Shown here: positions 15,677 to 34,995 of the stretch, in pieces
Layout: each line of letters opens with the position of its first letter
Position numbering within the stretch: the stretch's first letter is position 1
Source of the DNA: Acidobacteriota bacterium
GTDB lineage: Bacteria > Acidobacteriota > Blastocatellia > Pyrinomonadales > Pyrinomonadaceae
Assembly (NCBI GenBank): GCA_019639235.1
Contig: JAHBSG010000001.1
Location: 1-64,000, forward strand
DNA length: 64,000 nt
Reading direction: 5' to 3'
The notes under the pieces: model-generated
What the model was told of the DNA's origin: nothing
Databases searched by the model: none
What the model saw: the letters and a program-made list of their open reading frames with translations, nothing else
Program-made: the position numbers and the translations under genes

Positions 15677-17146
15677 ATGGCGAACGCAGAATTTGGAATG
15701 GTCGGGCTCGGGACGATGGGCCGCAACTTTTTGCTTAATGTGGCGGAAAATGGCTTCGCCGCCGTCGGTTTTGACCTGAGCGCCGATAAGCGCGACCTGC
15801 TTGAACAGGAAGGTGCCGGCATGCCGGTGACGGCGGCGTCCGATTTAGCCACGCTCGCAGCTTCGCTTGAGAGGCCGCGGCGGATCATGATGCTCGTCCC
15901 GGCCGGGCCGGTCGTCGATTCGGTCATCGGCGACCTGCTGCCGCATCTCGAGCCGGGCGATGTCGTGATCGACGGCGGCAACTCGCATTTTCCGGATACC
16001 GCTCGCCGTGAGGCTTTTCTAAAGGAACACGGGATCGCCTTTCTCGGCGTCGGAGTTTCAGGCGGCGAAGAAGGTGCCCGCCGCGGCCCGAGCATTATGA
16101 TAGGCGGCGACCCGGCGGTTTACGAAAACGTAAGCCCGATCCTTGAAGCCGTCTCAGCAAAGGTCAACGGCGAACCCTGCGCCGCCCACGTCGGCCGCGG
16201 TTCGGCAGGGCATTTCGTCAAGATGGTCCACAACGGCATCGAGTACGCGATGATGCAGCTCATCGCCGAAGCCTACGACCTGCTAAAGCGTGTCGGAGGC
16301 CCGACCGTCAGCGAGGGCTCAAGCTTCGGTAGCCCGCACGTAAGTAAGGGCTCATCGCAAAAAACAAACACCGAGATCGCCGACATCTTTGCCGAATGGA
16401 ACCGAGGCCGCCTGAATTCCTTCCTCGTCGAAATAACCGCGACCGTCCTGCGAAAGACCGACGCCGAAACCGGAAACTCGCTCGTCGATATGATCCTCGA
16501 CACCGCCGGCCAAAAGGGCACCGGCAAATGGACCTCGCAAGCCGCAATGGATCTCGGCATCCCGATTCCGGCGATCGACGCGGCTGTAACAATGCGGCAG
16601 ATCTCTGCCCAAAAACCATTCCGCGAAGAACTAAGCAGCCAATTTCCCCCAATTGGCAATTGGCCGATTGACAATTGTCAATTGGAAGAAAAGGAGGTCG
16701 AAACCGCGCTATACACTTCGTTCATCGCGGCATATGCACAGGGCTTCTCGCTGCTCCGGGCGGCTTCGGACGAGATGGGTTTTGAATTTGATATGATCGA
16801 GATCGCCAAGATCTGGCGAGGTGGTTGCATCATCCGGGCCGCGATGCTTGAGGATATTCGTGCTGCCTTTTCAGAGGAACCCGGACTCGAAAACATGATC
16901 GCGTCGCCTCGGTTTCAGTCTTCACTCTCCACCGGCCGGGAAGACCTTCGCAGGGTTGTTGCTGCGGGAGCGGTCGCGGGTATTCCAACGATGGCCTTTG
17001 CCGCGACGATGAATTACCTAACTGCCCTCGCCACCGAACGCCTCCCGGCCAACCTGATCCAGGCCCAGCGCGACTTCTTCGGAGCCCACACATACCAACG
17101 CACCGACCGCGAAGGCACGTTTCACACGGACGACTGGGACATGTAG
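15677..17146 (+). CDS. gnd: 6-phosphogluconate dehydrogenase, decarboxylating, with an in-frame hairpin insertion
   Basis: Oxidises and decarboxylates 6-phosphogluconate to ribulose 5-phosphate with NADP in the pentose phosphate pathway. The Rossmann start is GLGTMGRNFLLN; the family signature is VIDGGNSHFPDT, with GVGVSGGEEGARRGPSIM, the catalytic Lys/Asn region HFVKMVHNGIEYA and the C-terminal NLIQAQRDFFGAHTY followed by a conserved FHT. The length of 489 is slightly above the usual ~470. Residues 325-337 (about 16649-16685) are encoded by a near-perfect hairpin related to the repeats flanking the IVP gene at 31.6 kb. They lie where other 6PGDHs have a variable surface loop, so activity is probably kept. 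rpe for the next pathway step is at 46133. Confidence 0.95.
   Translation: MANAEFGMVGLGTMGRNFLLNVAENGFAAVGFDLSADKRDLLEQEGAGMPVTAASDLATLAASLERPRRIMMLVPAGPVVDSVIGDLLPHLEPGDVVIDGGNSHFPDTARREAFLKEHGIAFLGVGVSGGEEGARRGPSIMIGGDPAVYENVSPILEAVSAKVNGEPCAAHVGRGSAGHFVKMVHNGIEYAMMQLIAEAYDLLKRVGGPTVSEGSSFGSPHVSKGSSQKTNTEIADIFAEWNRGRLNSFLVEITATVLRKTDAETGNSLVDMILDTAGQKGTGKWTSQAAMDLGIPIPAIDAAVTMRQISAQKPFREELSSQFPPIGNWPIDNCQLEEKEVETALYTSFIAAYAQGFSLLRAASDEMGFEFDMIEIAKIWRGGCIIRAAMLEDIRAAFSEEPGLENMIASPRFQSSLSTGREDLRRVVAAGAVAGIPTMAFAATMNYLTALATERLPANLIQAQRDFFGAHTYQRTDREGTFHTDDWDM
16649..16685. repeat. 37-bp hairpin repeat inside gnd, related to the IVP-2 flanks
   Basis: The 37 bases form an inverted repeat that pairs at positions 1-14 with 24-37 (13 Watson-Crick pairs and one G-T), with an 8-9 base centre. 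The core CAATTG-N-CCGATT-N-ACAATTG-N-CAAT (16657-16682) matches the left flank of the second IVP gene at 31618-31643 at all but three positions. It adds no stop and keeps the gnd frame, encoding PIGNW, PIDNC, QLE. Confidence 0.8.
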
Positions 17147-18535: not shown

Positions 18536-19126
18536 ATGGCGATTCAAACTGCGGGCCAGAAAACCGCAAAGACAGTAAAACTTAAGATCGAGAACGCATC
18601 TTCGCTTGATATGCCAAAGGGCGGCGAGGAGACAATCCGGCAGGTGCTTGATTATGTCCCGATCGAGCAGCTCCGCGGGCTTGAGCGTGTAAAGCTCGTC
18701 GATTTCATCAACGACCCGCGGCTTAAGAACGTGGACGTCCCAATGAAGGGTGATTTGCCGGGGCTTTACCACCCGAAGGTCGGCAACCAGAATGCGTGGT
18801 TCGAGATCGCCATGGGCGCACTGCTCCAGCCGACCGAGGGCTTTGCAAAGCGTTGGATGGCAAAGACTTCGTTCAAAGCGAATATGGCCGGCCTGCTTTT
18901 TTCGCTTATCGGCCAACACTATTACCTGACGCTCCGCCACTCGGTCAAGAAACAAAACCTCGAACCGCAGATTCGGCAATACACTGAAAAGAACCTCCGT
19001 GCGTGGAGCGAGGAACAGAACAAGAACAGCTTCCGGGCAAAGCTCTTCAAACCGATCCGCCCCTTCGTCGAGCGCATGGCGAAATGGCTGAACAAGAAGG
19101 CGGCGAAAGCACAGAAGAAAGTCTAG
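18536..19126 (+). CDS. Conserved-looking hypothetical protein next to the IVP-1 cassette
   Basis: A 196-residue soluble protein with Lys-rich ends. The middle (LPGLYHPKVGNQNAWFEIAMGALLQP, split across about residues 82-108, and GLLFSLIGQHYYLTLRH at about 122-138) looks ordered and helical, with His and Glu residues that could bind metal, but no known family is recognised. It starts 3 bp after the DUF2442 gene. Its TAG stop (19124-19126) overlaps the first unit of the 9-bp repeat array, so the array begins exactly at the gene end. The gene seems intact. Confidence 0.65.
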   Translation: MAIQTAGQKTAKTVKLKIENASSLDMPKGGEETIRQVLDYVPIEQLRGLERVKLVDFINDPRLKNVDVPMKGDLPGLYHPKVGNQNAWFEIAMGALLQPTEGFAKRWMAKTSFKANMAGLLFSLIGQHYYLTLRHSVKKQNLEPQIRQYTEKNLRAWSEEQNKNSFRAKLFKPIRPFVERMAKWLNKKAAKAQKKV

Positions 19127-19188
19127 GAAGTCTGGGAAGTCTCGGAAGTCTGGGAAGTCTCGGAAGTCTGGGAAGTCTCGGAAGTTCG
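19126..19188 (+). repeat. Left arm of IVP-1 cassette: seven 9-bp units
   Basis: Units alternate GGAAGTCTG and GGAAGTCTC (six units, 19126-19179) and end with the degenerate GGAAGTTCG (19180-19188). The array lies between the stop of the upstream gene and the IVP start at 19211. Its reverse complement recurs on the other side of the IVP gene, so a transcript could fold with the gene in the loop. Confidence 0.9.
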
Positions 19189-19210
19189 AAGGTCTGGTTC
19201 GGCGAATGAC

Positions 19211-19594
19211 ATGGCGACATTCAAGCGGTTCGAGGATATTGTTGCATGGCAGAAGGCTCGGGAACTGAACCTTGAGATTTACCGGATCTGTGGCTCCGGG
19301 CCGTTTTCCAAGGATTTTGATCTTCGCAACCAGATCCGTCGAGCATCGATATCGATCGCCGCGAACATTGCCGAAGGACAGGGACGACGCACCGATAAAG
19401 ATTTCGCACATTTTCTTAATATCGCCCTAGGTTCTGTCGCCGAAACGAAGTCGCATTTGTACTTGGCTTTAGACCTTGGTTACATCGACAACAAGATGTT
19501 TGACGAACTATACTCTCGGCTCGATGAGATCGGACGAATGACGTTTGGTCTCATCCAACATTTGCGAAACGCGATCAAGACAATTGAGGTTTAG
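19211..19594 (+). CDS. Four-helix-bundle protein, 23S rRNA intervening-sequence (IVP/S23) family, copy 1
   Basis: A canonical 127-residue member of the IVP family: FEDIVAWQKARELNLEIYR, then QIRRASISIAANIAEGQGR, then FAHFLNIALGSVAETKSHL and a final helix. The family was first found in insertions within 23S rRNA genes; relatives include the Avd accessory protein of diversity-generating retroelements. The biochemical role is unknown. Here it is not in an rRNA gene but between two protein genes, flanked by inverted 9-bp repeats (19126-19188 and 19625-19664). The flanking genes look intact, consistent with insertion into a spacer. No reverse transcriptase or template repeat is nearby. Confidence 0.92.
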   Translation: MATFKRFEDIVAWQKARELNLEIYRICGSGPFSKDFDLRNQIRRASISIAANIAEGQGRRTDKDFAHFLNIALGSVAETKSHLYLALDLGYIDNKMFDELYSRLDEIGRMTFGLIQHLRNAIKTIEV

Positions 19595-19624
19595 GAAACC
19601 CAAGACGGTCCAAAGCTATGCTAC

Positions 19625-19664
19625 GGACTTCCAAGACCTCCTAGACTTCCAAGACTGACTAGAC
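19625..19664 (-). repeat. Right arm of IVP-1 cassette: inverted 9-bp units
   Basis: On the minus strand the region reads as degenerate copies of the left-arm unit: GTCTTGGAAGTC, GTCTAGGAGGTC, GTCTTGGAAGTCC. It lies 30 bp after the IVP stop and just before the EVE gene. Together with the left arm it forms the inverted-repeat frame of the cassette. Confidence 0.8.
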
Positions 19665-19673
19665 AATAAACTT

Positions 19674-20078
19674 ATGAACTACTGGATGGTTAAACAAGAG
19701 CCCGATTCTTACTCTTGGGATGATTTTGTTAAGGACGGTAAGACCGATTGGACCGGCGTGCGGAACTATCAGGCGCGCAACAACCTTCGCGATATGAAGG
19801 TCGGCGATAAGGTGCTTTTCTACCACTCGAATATCGGCAAAGAGGTCGTCGGTATCGCAAAGGTGACGAAGGCCGCTTTTCCGGACCCGACCGCCGACGA
19901 TGAGAAATGGGTCGCCGTCGAGCTCTCGCCGGTCAAACCGCTAAAGAAGCCGGTCGGGCTCGGGCAGATGAAAGAGAACCTCGCGCTTAGCGAGCTGAAG
20001 CTCATCCGGCAATCCCAGCTTTCCGTAATGCCCGTAACGAAAGACGAGTTCGAAGAGATCCTCAGCATGGCTAGGTAA
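19674..20078 (+). CDS. EVE domain protein
   Basis: A 134-residue single-domain protein of the EVE/Thy28 group (PUA-like fold that binds modified nucleobases or RNA). Diagnostic stretches: YWMVKQEPDSYSWDDF, WTGVRNYQARNNLRDMKVGD and VLFYHSNIGKEVVGIAKV. In bacteria EVE proteins are linked to modified bases or RNA modification, but the ligand here is unknown. It starts right after the IVP-1 right arm and is 5 bp before the ATP-grasp gene. Confidence 0.93.
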   Translation: MNYWMVKQEPDSYSWDDFVKDGKTDWTGVRNYQARNNLRDMKVGDKVLFYHSNIGKEVVGIAKVTKAAFPDPTADDEKWVAVELSPVKPLKKPVGLGQMKENLALSELKLIRQSQLSVMPVTKDEFEEILSMAR

Positions 20079-31643: not shown

Positions 31644-31998
31644 GATGAGCGAAAATCCCATTGTCTCGAAATCGTTTGCGTTTGCCCTGCGGACAGTAAA
31701 GCTTTGCCGCATTCTTGCCGATGAGCACAAGGAATATACGCTCAGCCGCGAGCTGCTCTCGTCCGGGACGAACATCGGCCGTTATGTTAAGGCAGCCGTA
31801 AGCGGCGAGTCGCGTGATAGTTTTGTTCAGAACATGGGAAAGGCATTGCAGCAAGCGGACATTACCGAATACTGGCTCCAACTTATCAGCTTTGCCCAAT
31901 TGCTCAATGAAAATGAATACGAGTCCATTGAACGCGACCGAAAAGAACTCGCGAAAATGCTGACCAACATCGTCAAGACATCAAGGGGCAAATTGTAA
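31642..31998 (+). CDS. Four-helix-bundle protein, IVP/S23 family, copy 2
   Basis: A 118-residue member of the 23S rRNA intervening-sequence protein family, divergent from copy 1: FALRTVKLCRILADEHKEY, ELLSSGTNIGRYVKAAVSGE, VQNMGKALQQADITEYWLQL and a final Lys/Arg-rich helix. The NIGRYVKAA..GES..SF pattern replaces the NIAEG motif, a known subfamily of the same fold. Function is unknown. The gene sits between the AtuA-like gene and an enoyl-CoA hydratase, flanked by inverted CAATTG-type repeats. Its 3' end, right repeat and the following gene start are tandemly duplicated (108 bp). Start at the first of two adjacent ATGs. Confidence 0.85.
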   Translation: MMSENPIVSKSFAFALRTVKLCRILADEHKEYTLSRELLSSGTNIGRYVKAAVSGESRDSFVQNMGKALQQADITEYWLQLISFAQLLNENEYESIERDRKELAKMLTNIVKTSRGKL

Positions 31999-32171
31999 AT
32001 TGTCCATTGAAAGATTGTTAATTGGAAGAAGATATGCCCGTTCCAGTCACAGACGATCACGATAATGCTGACCAACATCGTCAAGACATCACGGGGCAAA
32101 TTGTAAATTGTCCATTGAAGGATTGTTAATTGGAAGAAGATATGTCCGTTCTATTGACCACAGATCACGAT
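31956..32171 (+). repeat. 108-bp tandem duplication including the IVP-2 right arm
   Basis: Copy 1 (31956-32063) and copy 2 (32064-32171) have constant offset 108 and differ at few positions over the first 86 bases; the last third is diverged but both end in GATCACGAT. Each copy holds the last codons of the IVP gene or their copy, the right-arm repeat (31987-32025 and 32095-32133), the ribosome site TTGGAAGAAG and a start codon. The ATG in copy 1 (32034) opens only a 31-codon remnant; that in copy 2 (32142) starts the intact hydratase. Confidence 0.92.
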
Positions 32172-34681: not shown

Positions 34682-34995
34682 GGTTTGGAGACGTGGCGGA
34701 ACGGTTTGACGGCTTGGACGAACCGGTTGACGGCTAGGGCGAACGGTTTGACGGCTTGGACGAACGGTTTGACGGCTTGGACGAACGGTTTGACGGCTTG
34801 GACGAATGGTTTGACGGCTTGGACGAACGGTTTGACGGTTTGGACGAACGGTTTGACGGTTTGGACGAACGGTTTGACGGCTTGGACGAACGGTTTGACG
34901 GCGTGGCGGAATGGTTTGACGGCTTCGACGAACGGTTTGGCGGCTTGGACGAATGGTTTGGCGGCCTCGGAAATCCGTTTTGCGGCCTGAGAAAA
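34682..34995 (+). repeat. 21-bp minisatellite (about 14-15 units)
   Basis: Units of GGTTTGACGGCTTGGACGAAC repeat every 21 bp from 34682/34703 to about 34976, the end units degenerate. One plus-strand frame reads as perfect heptads (FDGLDER), a coiled-coil pattern, from 34756 to a stop at 35001, but the same frame has a TAG near 34735 and no good start or ribosome site. I treat the array as non-coding or as the relic of a coiled-coil gene. The rest of 34588-35154 holds no other gene. Confidence 0.88.

Follow-up and report, generated by a model that had tools for sequence, protein, structure and literature searches.

Between the genes of an uncharacterised 196-aa protein and an EVE-domain protein of an Acidobacteriota bacterium (assembly GCA_019639235.1, contig JAHBSG010000001.1, positions 1 to 64,000, this whole 64,000-nucleotide stretch being called the window), a small gene of unknown function is found within two inverted rows of short repeats. 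The gene codes for an IVP protein (23S_rRNA_IVP, S23p, "four helix bundle protein"). The upstream row consists of six exact GGAAGTCT(G/C) units plus a degenerate one and starts at the stop codon of the upstream gene, which lies inside the first unit. The arms are 80-85% complementary over 39-44 nt, and folding of the stretch 19115-19670 closes with this stem, with z = -4.4 as RNA and z = -3.2 as DNA. The features are listed in the table below.

Features of the IVP cassette, its neighbors and other repeats of the window
Feature	Position	Strand	Observations
Upstream neighbor, uncharacterised 196-aa protein	18536-19126	+	no Pfam match; the array supplies its last codon and stop (TAG, 19124-19126)
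Upstream arm, 9-bp tandem array (GGAAGTCTN)	19119-19191	+	G-rich on the gene strand; units GGAAGTCTG/GGAAGTCTC x6 at 19126-19179, then GGAAGTTCG; TRF 19119-19185, period 9/18, score 127; copy number differs in the G010 and G031 orthologs
IVP gene, 127 aa	19211-19594	+	PF05635, E=6e-39, 133 bits vs cut-off 33.8; dN/dS 0.06-0.08
Downstream arm, inverted degenerate copies of the same 9-bp unit (CTTCCAAGA..)	19626-19664	-	TRF score 57; nearly identical in G010 and G031
Downstream neighbor, EVE-domain protein	19674-20078	+	PF01878, E 6e-48; synteny kept in the genus with or without the cassette
CAATTGG heptad array	16650-16685		in frame inside a 489-aa ORF (15677-17146) that looks like a 6-phosphogluconate dehydrogenase
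Second, diverged IVP gene (L015) with AATTG-type heptads	31645-31998 and 31952-32151		a 108-bp tandem duplication covers its 3' end and downstream arm
21-bp unit repeated 12.7 times	34699-34965

The first-pass annotation had described these inverted arrays and proposed that the architecture of the intervening sequences (IVS) of 23S rRNA, a hairpin with the gene in the loop, is here placed between protein genes, possibly as a mobile or copied hairpin element. The observation is confirmed and the interpretation is supported, since orthologous sites without the cassette exist and IVP genes elsewhere do carry inverted tandem flanks, across phyla. What had been missed is that the unit differs per locus and tracks the protein subfamily, and that gene-less hairpins of the same unit exist, whereas a role at the RNA level is not specifically supported.

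The genome (3.84 Mb, 98% complete) contains 17 IVP genes, most of which are flanked by inverted short tandem arrays with a different unit at each locus, among them AGAAGCN, GTGAAAAG, AGTGAGC, GAGGGAC, CGAAAGG and AACGATG. When the two flanks of each locus were aligned with each other and with those of other loci, matched pairs averaged 18.5 against 8.3 for mismatched pairs over 44 loci of the genus, and most loci ranked their own partner first or among loci that share the unit. An unbiased census of inverted tandem arrays in 864 kb of this genome revealed four IVP loci, two gene-less hairpins and a few short palindromes, while shuffled sequence gave one hit at the lowest threshold, none above and none at score >=20. 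Furthermore, of 617 ORFs of similar size in the same 864 kb, only four have inverted periodic flanks (score >=14 and periodic arms), and all four are IVP genes.

All 41 genomes of the genus have IVP genes, and a scan of named genomes gave 80 loci from many phyla. Here, 65 of the 79 testable loci exceed the 95th percentile of mismatched pairs and 22 of 35 loci on viral contigs exceed the 99th, with means of 17.2 for matched and 8.0 for mismatched flanks over the 79 named plus 35 viral loci. Six annotated plasmid loci of cyanobacteria also carry inverted heptads (AGGGTGT, AGGGAGT, AGGGAAC, AGAATTC and similar), although three of the six have only short arms (scores 10-12.5). On two plasmids of Calothrix brevissima NIES-22 (plasmids 1 and 2) the IVP gene lies next to a phage-integrase gene, the same gene block being present on both, and related conjugative plasmids of two cyanobacterial genera keep the same IVP site but differ by 14 nt (two heptads) in the upstream arm. 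By score alone (>=14), 10/16 own-genome, 24/28 genus, 51/79 named and 22/35 viral loci pass, so a sizeable minority of IVP genes, including several of this genome (L010, L011 and L014-L017), have weak or no recognisable arms. The period is mostly 7 bp (also 8 and 9), and the polarity of the arms is fixed relative to the gene, with the upstream arm being G-rich in 93 of 100 scored loci (93:7).

The unit tracks the protein. The 4-mer similarity of the arms correlates with protein identity, with a Mantel r of 0.27 over 95 non-redundant loci (permutation maximum 0.08) and of 0.24 within the cross-phylum set (permutation maximum 0.136). MATFxRFEDI-type proteins carry AGTC- or AGTT-containing 8-9-mers, whereas RPHEKL-type proteins carry GTGAATC- or GTGACA-like heptamers. 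This is the main argument that the protein recognises the unit. However, shared descent of gene and arms as one element contributes to the same signal and is not separated by this test.

The sites are polymorphic. At the window site, relatives show every state: the same cassette (genomes G010 and G031, with a 73%-identical IVP in G007), a different IVP with a different unit (G033, G026 and G014), gene-less hairpins (G009, G018 and G012) and near-empty spacers of 6-53 nt. At a second site (L007), the genome under study (G000) has a cassette while its two nearest relatives have a 15-nt spacer, and the distant G061 has a cassette of the same unit. At the fusA and L005 sites, close relatives carry different hairpins or cassettes, and G010 and G031 hold a gene-less hairpin of the window's own unit where G000 has another IVP cassette. 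Only 9 of 17 G010 IVP sites are shared with G000. At some shared sites the IVP genes are so diverged that dS is saturated, although the flanking DNA is 79-96% identical, and both arms have changed unit together, which points to replacement of whole elements. The upstream gene of a further locus (L006) had too few orthologs to serve as a synteny probe. A seeding of the unit from the 3' end of the host gene was also considered but is not supported, since close relatives at one site carry different units on both arms at once and the window's unit occurs at unrelated sites.

In the 864-kb sample, four hairpins match units of genus IVP arms, against one for each control arm set; the control hit is the same locus (C44:38767), so three are clean. 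A 24-nt array pattern of the window's unit occurs in 13 of 41 genomes, with no hit to the reversed pattern in any genome, and all seven genomes known to carry a close relative of this IVP are among the 13. The loops differ between copies and look unrelated, so these hairpins do not appear to be simple internal deletions of one element. Other gene-less intergenic hairpin families, of the CCGCAGAGACGCAGAG and GCCCGCGAATNNCGCGAAT types, are present as well (L310 at G000:C14:65800-66010, L257, L262, L276, L278 and L281), for which no cognate gene was identified, and one intergenic space (L265) holds a long composite gene-less array with several units (GGTTTTT, AAATTTG, CCAGAAA).

Orthologous IVP genes show a dN/dS of 0.04-0.10 where it can be measured, so the protein is functional and under strong purifying selection. 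The AF2 model (pLDDT 93) predicts a four-helix bundle, which matches XCC0516 (2gsc) and BT_0352 (2rld) (AF2 model and 2gsc TM 0.79-0.93) and, at lower significance but with a TM-score of about 0.7-0.86, Avd, the accessory protein of diversity-generating retroelements (4dwl, 8ub7). IVP has no recognisable catalytic motif, and no reverse transcriptase (RVT_1 match) was detected in the genome.

Among the closest known systems is the IVS of bacterial 23S rRNA (Leptospira, Coxiella, Salmonella), several of which harbor the S23p/IVP ORF. The Coxiella IVS has a 28-bp terminal stem and tandem GACAGAT heptamers before the ORF whose copy number varies by strain (PMC4990558). In contrast, the cassette described here lies between protein genes, IVP cassettes occur in many copies per genome with units that differ between copies and track the protein subfamily, gene-less hairpins are present, and there is no rRNA link and, in the absence of RNA data, no evidence of excision by RNase III. 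A motif scan found no IVP locus inside 23S rRNA among the loci fetched, so the rRNA link rests on the literature, where IVP ORFs have also been seen in rRNA insertions of CPR bacteria (PMC11270868) and in cas loci (PMC3936711). REP/REPIN elements with RAYT (Y1) transposases (PMC3116915) are likewise intergenic and comprise a protein whose flanking hairpin unit is also dispersed as gene-less hairpins in the same genome; however, the IVP gene lacks a Y1 domain and its unit is a tandem 7-9-bp array, not a single palindrome. Orphan intergenic 7-bp arrays are known as GGGAATC in Xanthomonas, with 70-75 inverted pairs per genome (PMC4692102), and as TAACTGA in Beggiatoaceae, Cyanobacteria and Bacteroidetes (PMC4679880), and no link to an IVP gene was found in those papers. 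The Xanthomonas arrays are a candidate gene-less population for XCC0516, which is from the same species and whose N-terminus (RPHERLDAW) resembles the RPHEKL subfamily with GTGAATC/GAGAATA-like units; this is a prediction, not a result. No paper linking IVP genes outside rRNA to inverted tandem arrays was found, although the search did not cover most subscription journals and is not proof of novelty.

Taken together, we favor, with moderate confidence, the view that the feature is one copy of a widespread class of small (about 0.5 kb) gene-bearing hairpin elements, each with two inverted arrays of a 7-9-bp unit and a single IVP gene in the loop, nearly always oriented so that the G-rich arm is upstream. 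Mobility is shown only indirectly, by site polymorphism; no movement was observed, and no exact target-site duplication or clean junction could be read because the intergenic spacers diverge. It is inferred that the pentameric, Avd-like IVP protein binds its cognate arrays (from the covariation only), as ssDNA, hairpin or RNA, and helps the hairpin to copy or insert itself, probably by handing the looped-out strand to host replication or repair, since this genome has no detectable reverse transcriptase. Host replication as the engine is a guess. The fixed G-rich polarity suggests that one strand is special, and a DNA-level role, for example in lagging-strand ssDNA, is favored. In this view, gene-less hairpins would be non-autonomous passengers, the IVSs of 23S rRNA would be members of this class that inserted in rRNA genes, and insertion at stop codons is tolerated because the array recreates a stop.

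Nevertheless, an RNA-level device, although unlikely, would also fit part of the data. Here, the transcribed stem would be cut by RNase III or would block read-through between the neighboring genes, with IVP binding its own hairpin RNA to control this and any mobility being incidental. 23S rRNA IVSs are excised by RNase III (PMC4990558), the RNA fold is stable, the cassette sits between co-directional genes at a stop codon and Avd, the structural relative, works in an RNP. On the contrary, the arm mismatches show no excess of sense-strand G-U pairs (143 vs 140), which argues against selection for a sense-RNA stem, the cassette can sit antisense inside an operon (nrdB-nrdA on a Nostoc plasmid), and the high turnover between close species fits poorly with a conserved regulatory role.

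It appears less likely still that the repeats are passive, growing by slippage and snap-back copying and being spread by another enzyme, for example the Y1/RAYT proteins, with the IVP gene as cargo tolerated in the loop. Gene-less hairpins exist, arrays change copy number and ten Y1_Tnp genes are present in the genome, but most of these are flanked by ordinary palindromes of the REP type and not by tandem arrays, no other gene type was found inside such arrays in the 864 kb examined, the units covary with the IVP subfamily across phyla and IVP is under purifying selection. A retroelement mobilised by a reverse transcriptase acting in trans, with IVP as the Avd-like partner that loads the hairpin RNA, is suggested by the fold shared with Avd of DGR ribonucleoproteins, yet it appears similarly unlikely given that this genome with 17 IVP genes has no RVT_1 match, and no adenine-specific variation was noticed in the arrays on inspection.

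A further-reaching possibility, which is tentative, is that IVP proteins are the specificity factors of an unrecognised, bacteria-wide class of hairpin mobile elements, in which each protein subfamily reads its own 7-9-bp tandem unit and maintains both gene-bearing and gene-less hairpins; rRNA IVSs and the orphan heptamer arrays in cyanobacteria and xanthomonads would then be parts of the same class. IVP genes are common and have no known function. A protein-repeat code conserved across phyla makes this function directly testable, in the sense of which unit is bound by which protein. It would also explain orphan heptamer arrays and rRNA IVSs, and would supply many natural protein/unit pairs for studying how repeat recognition evolves.
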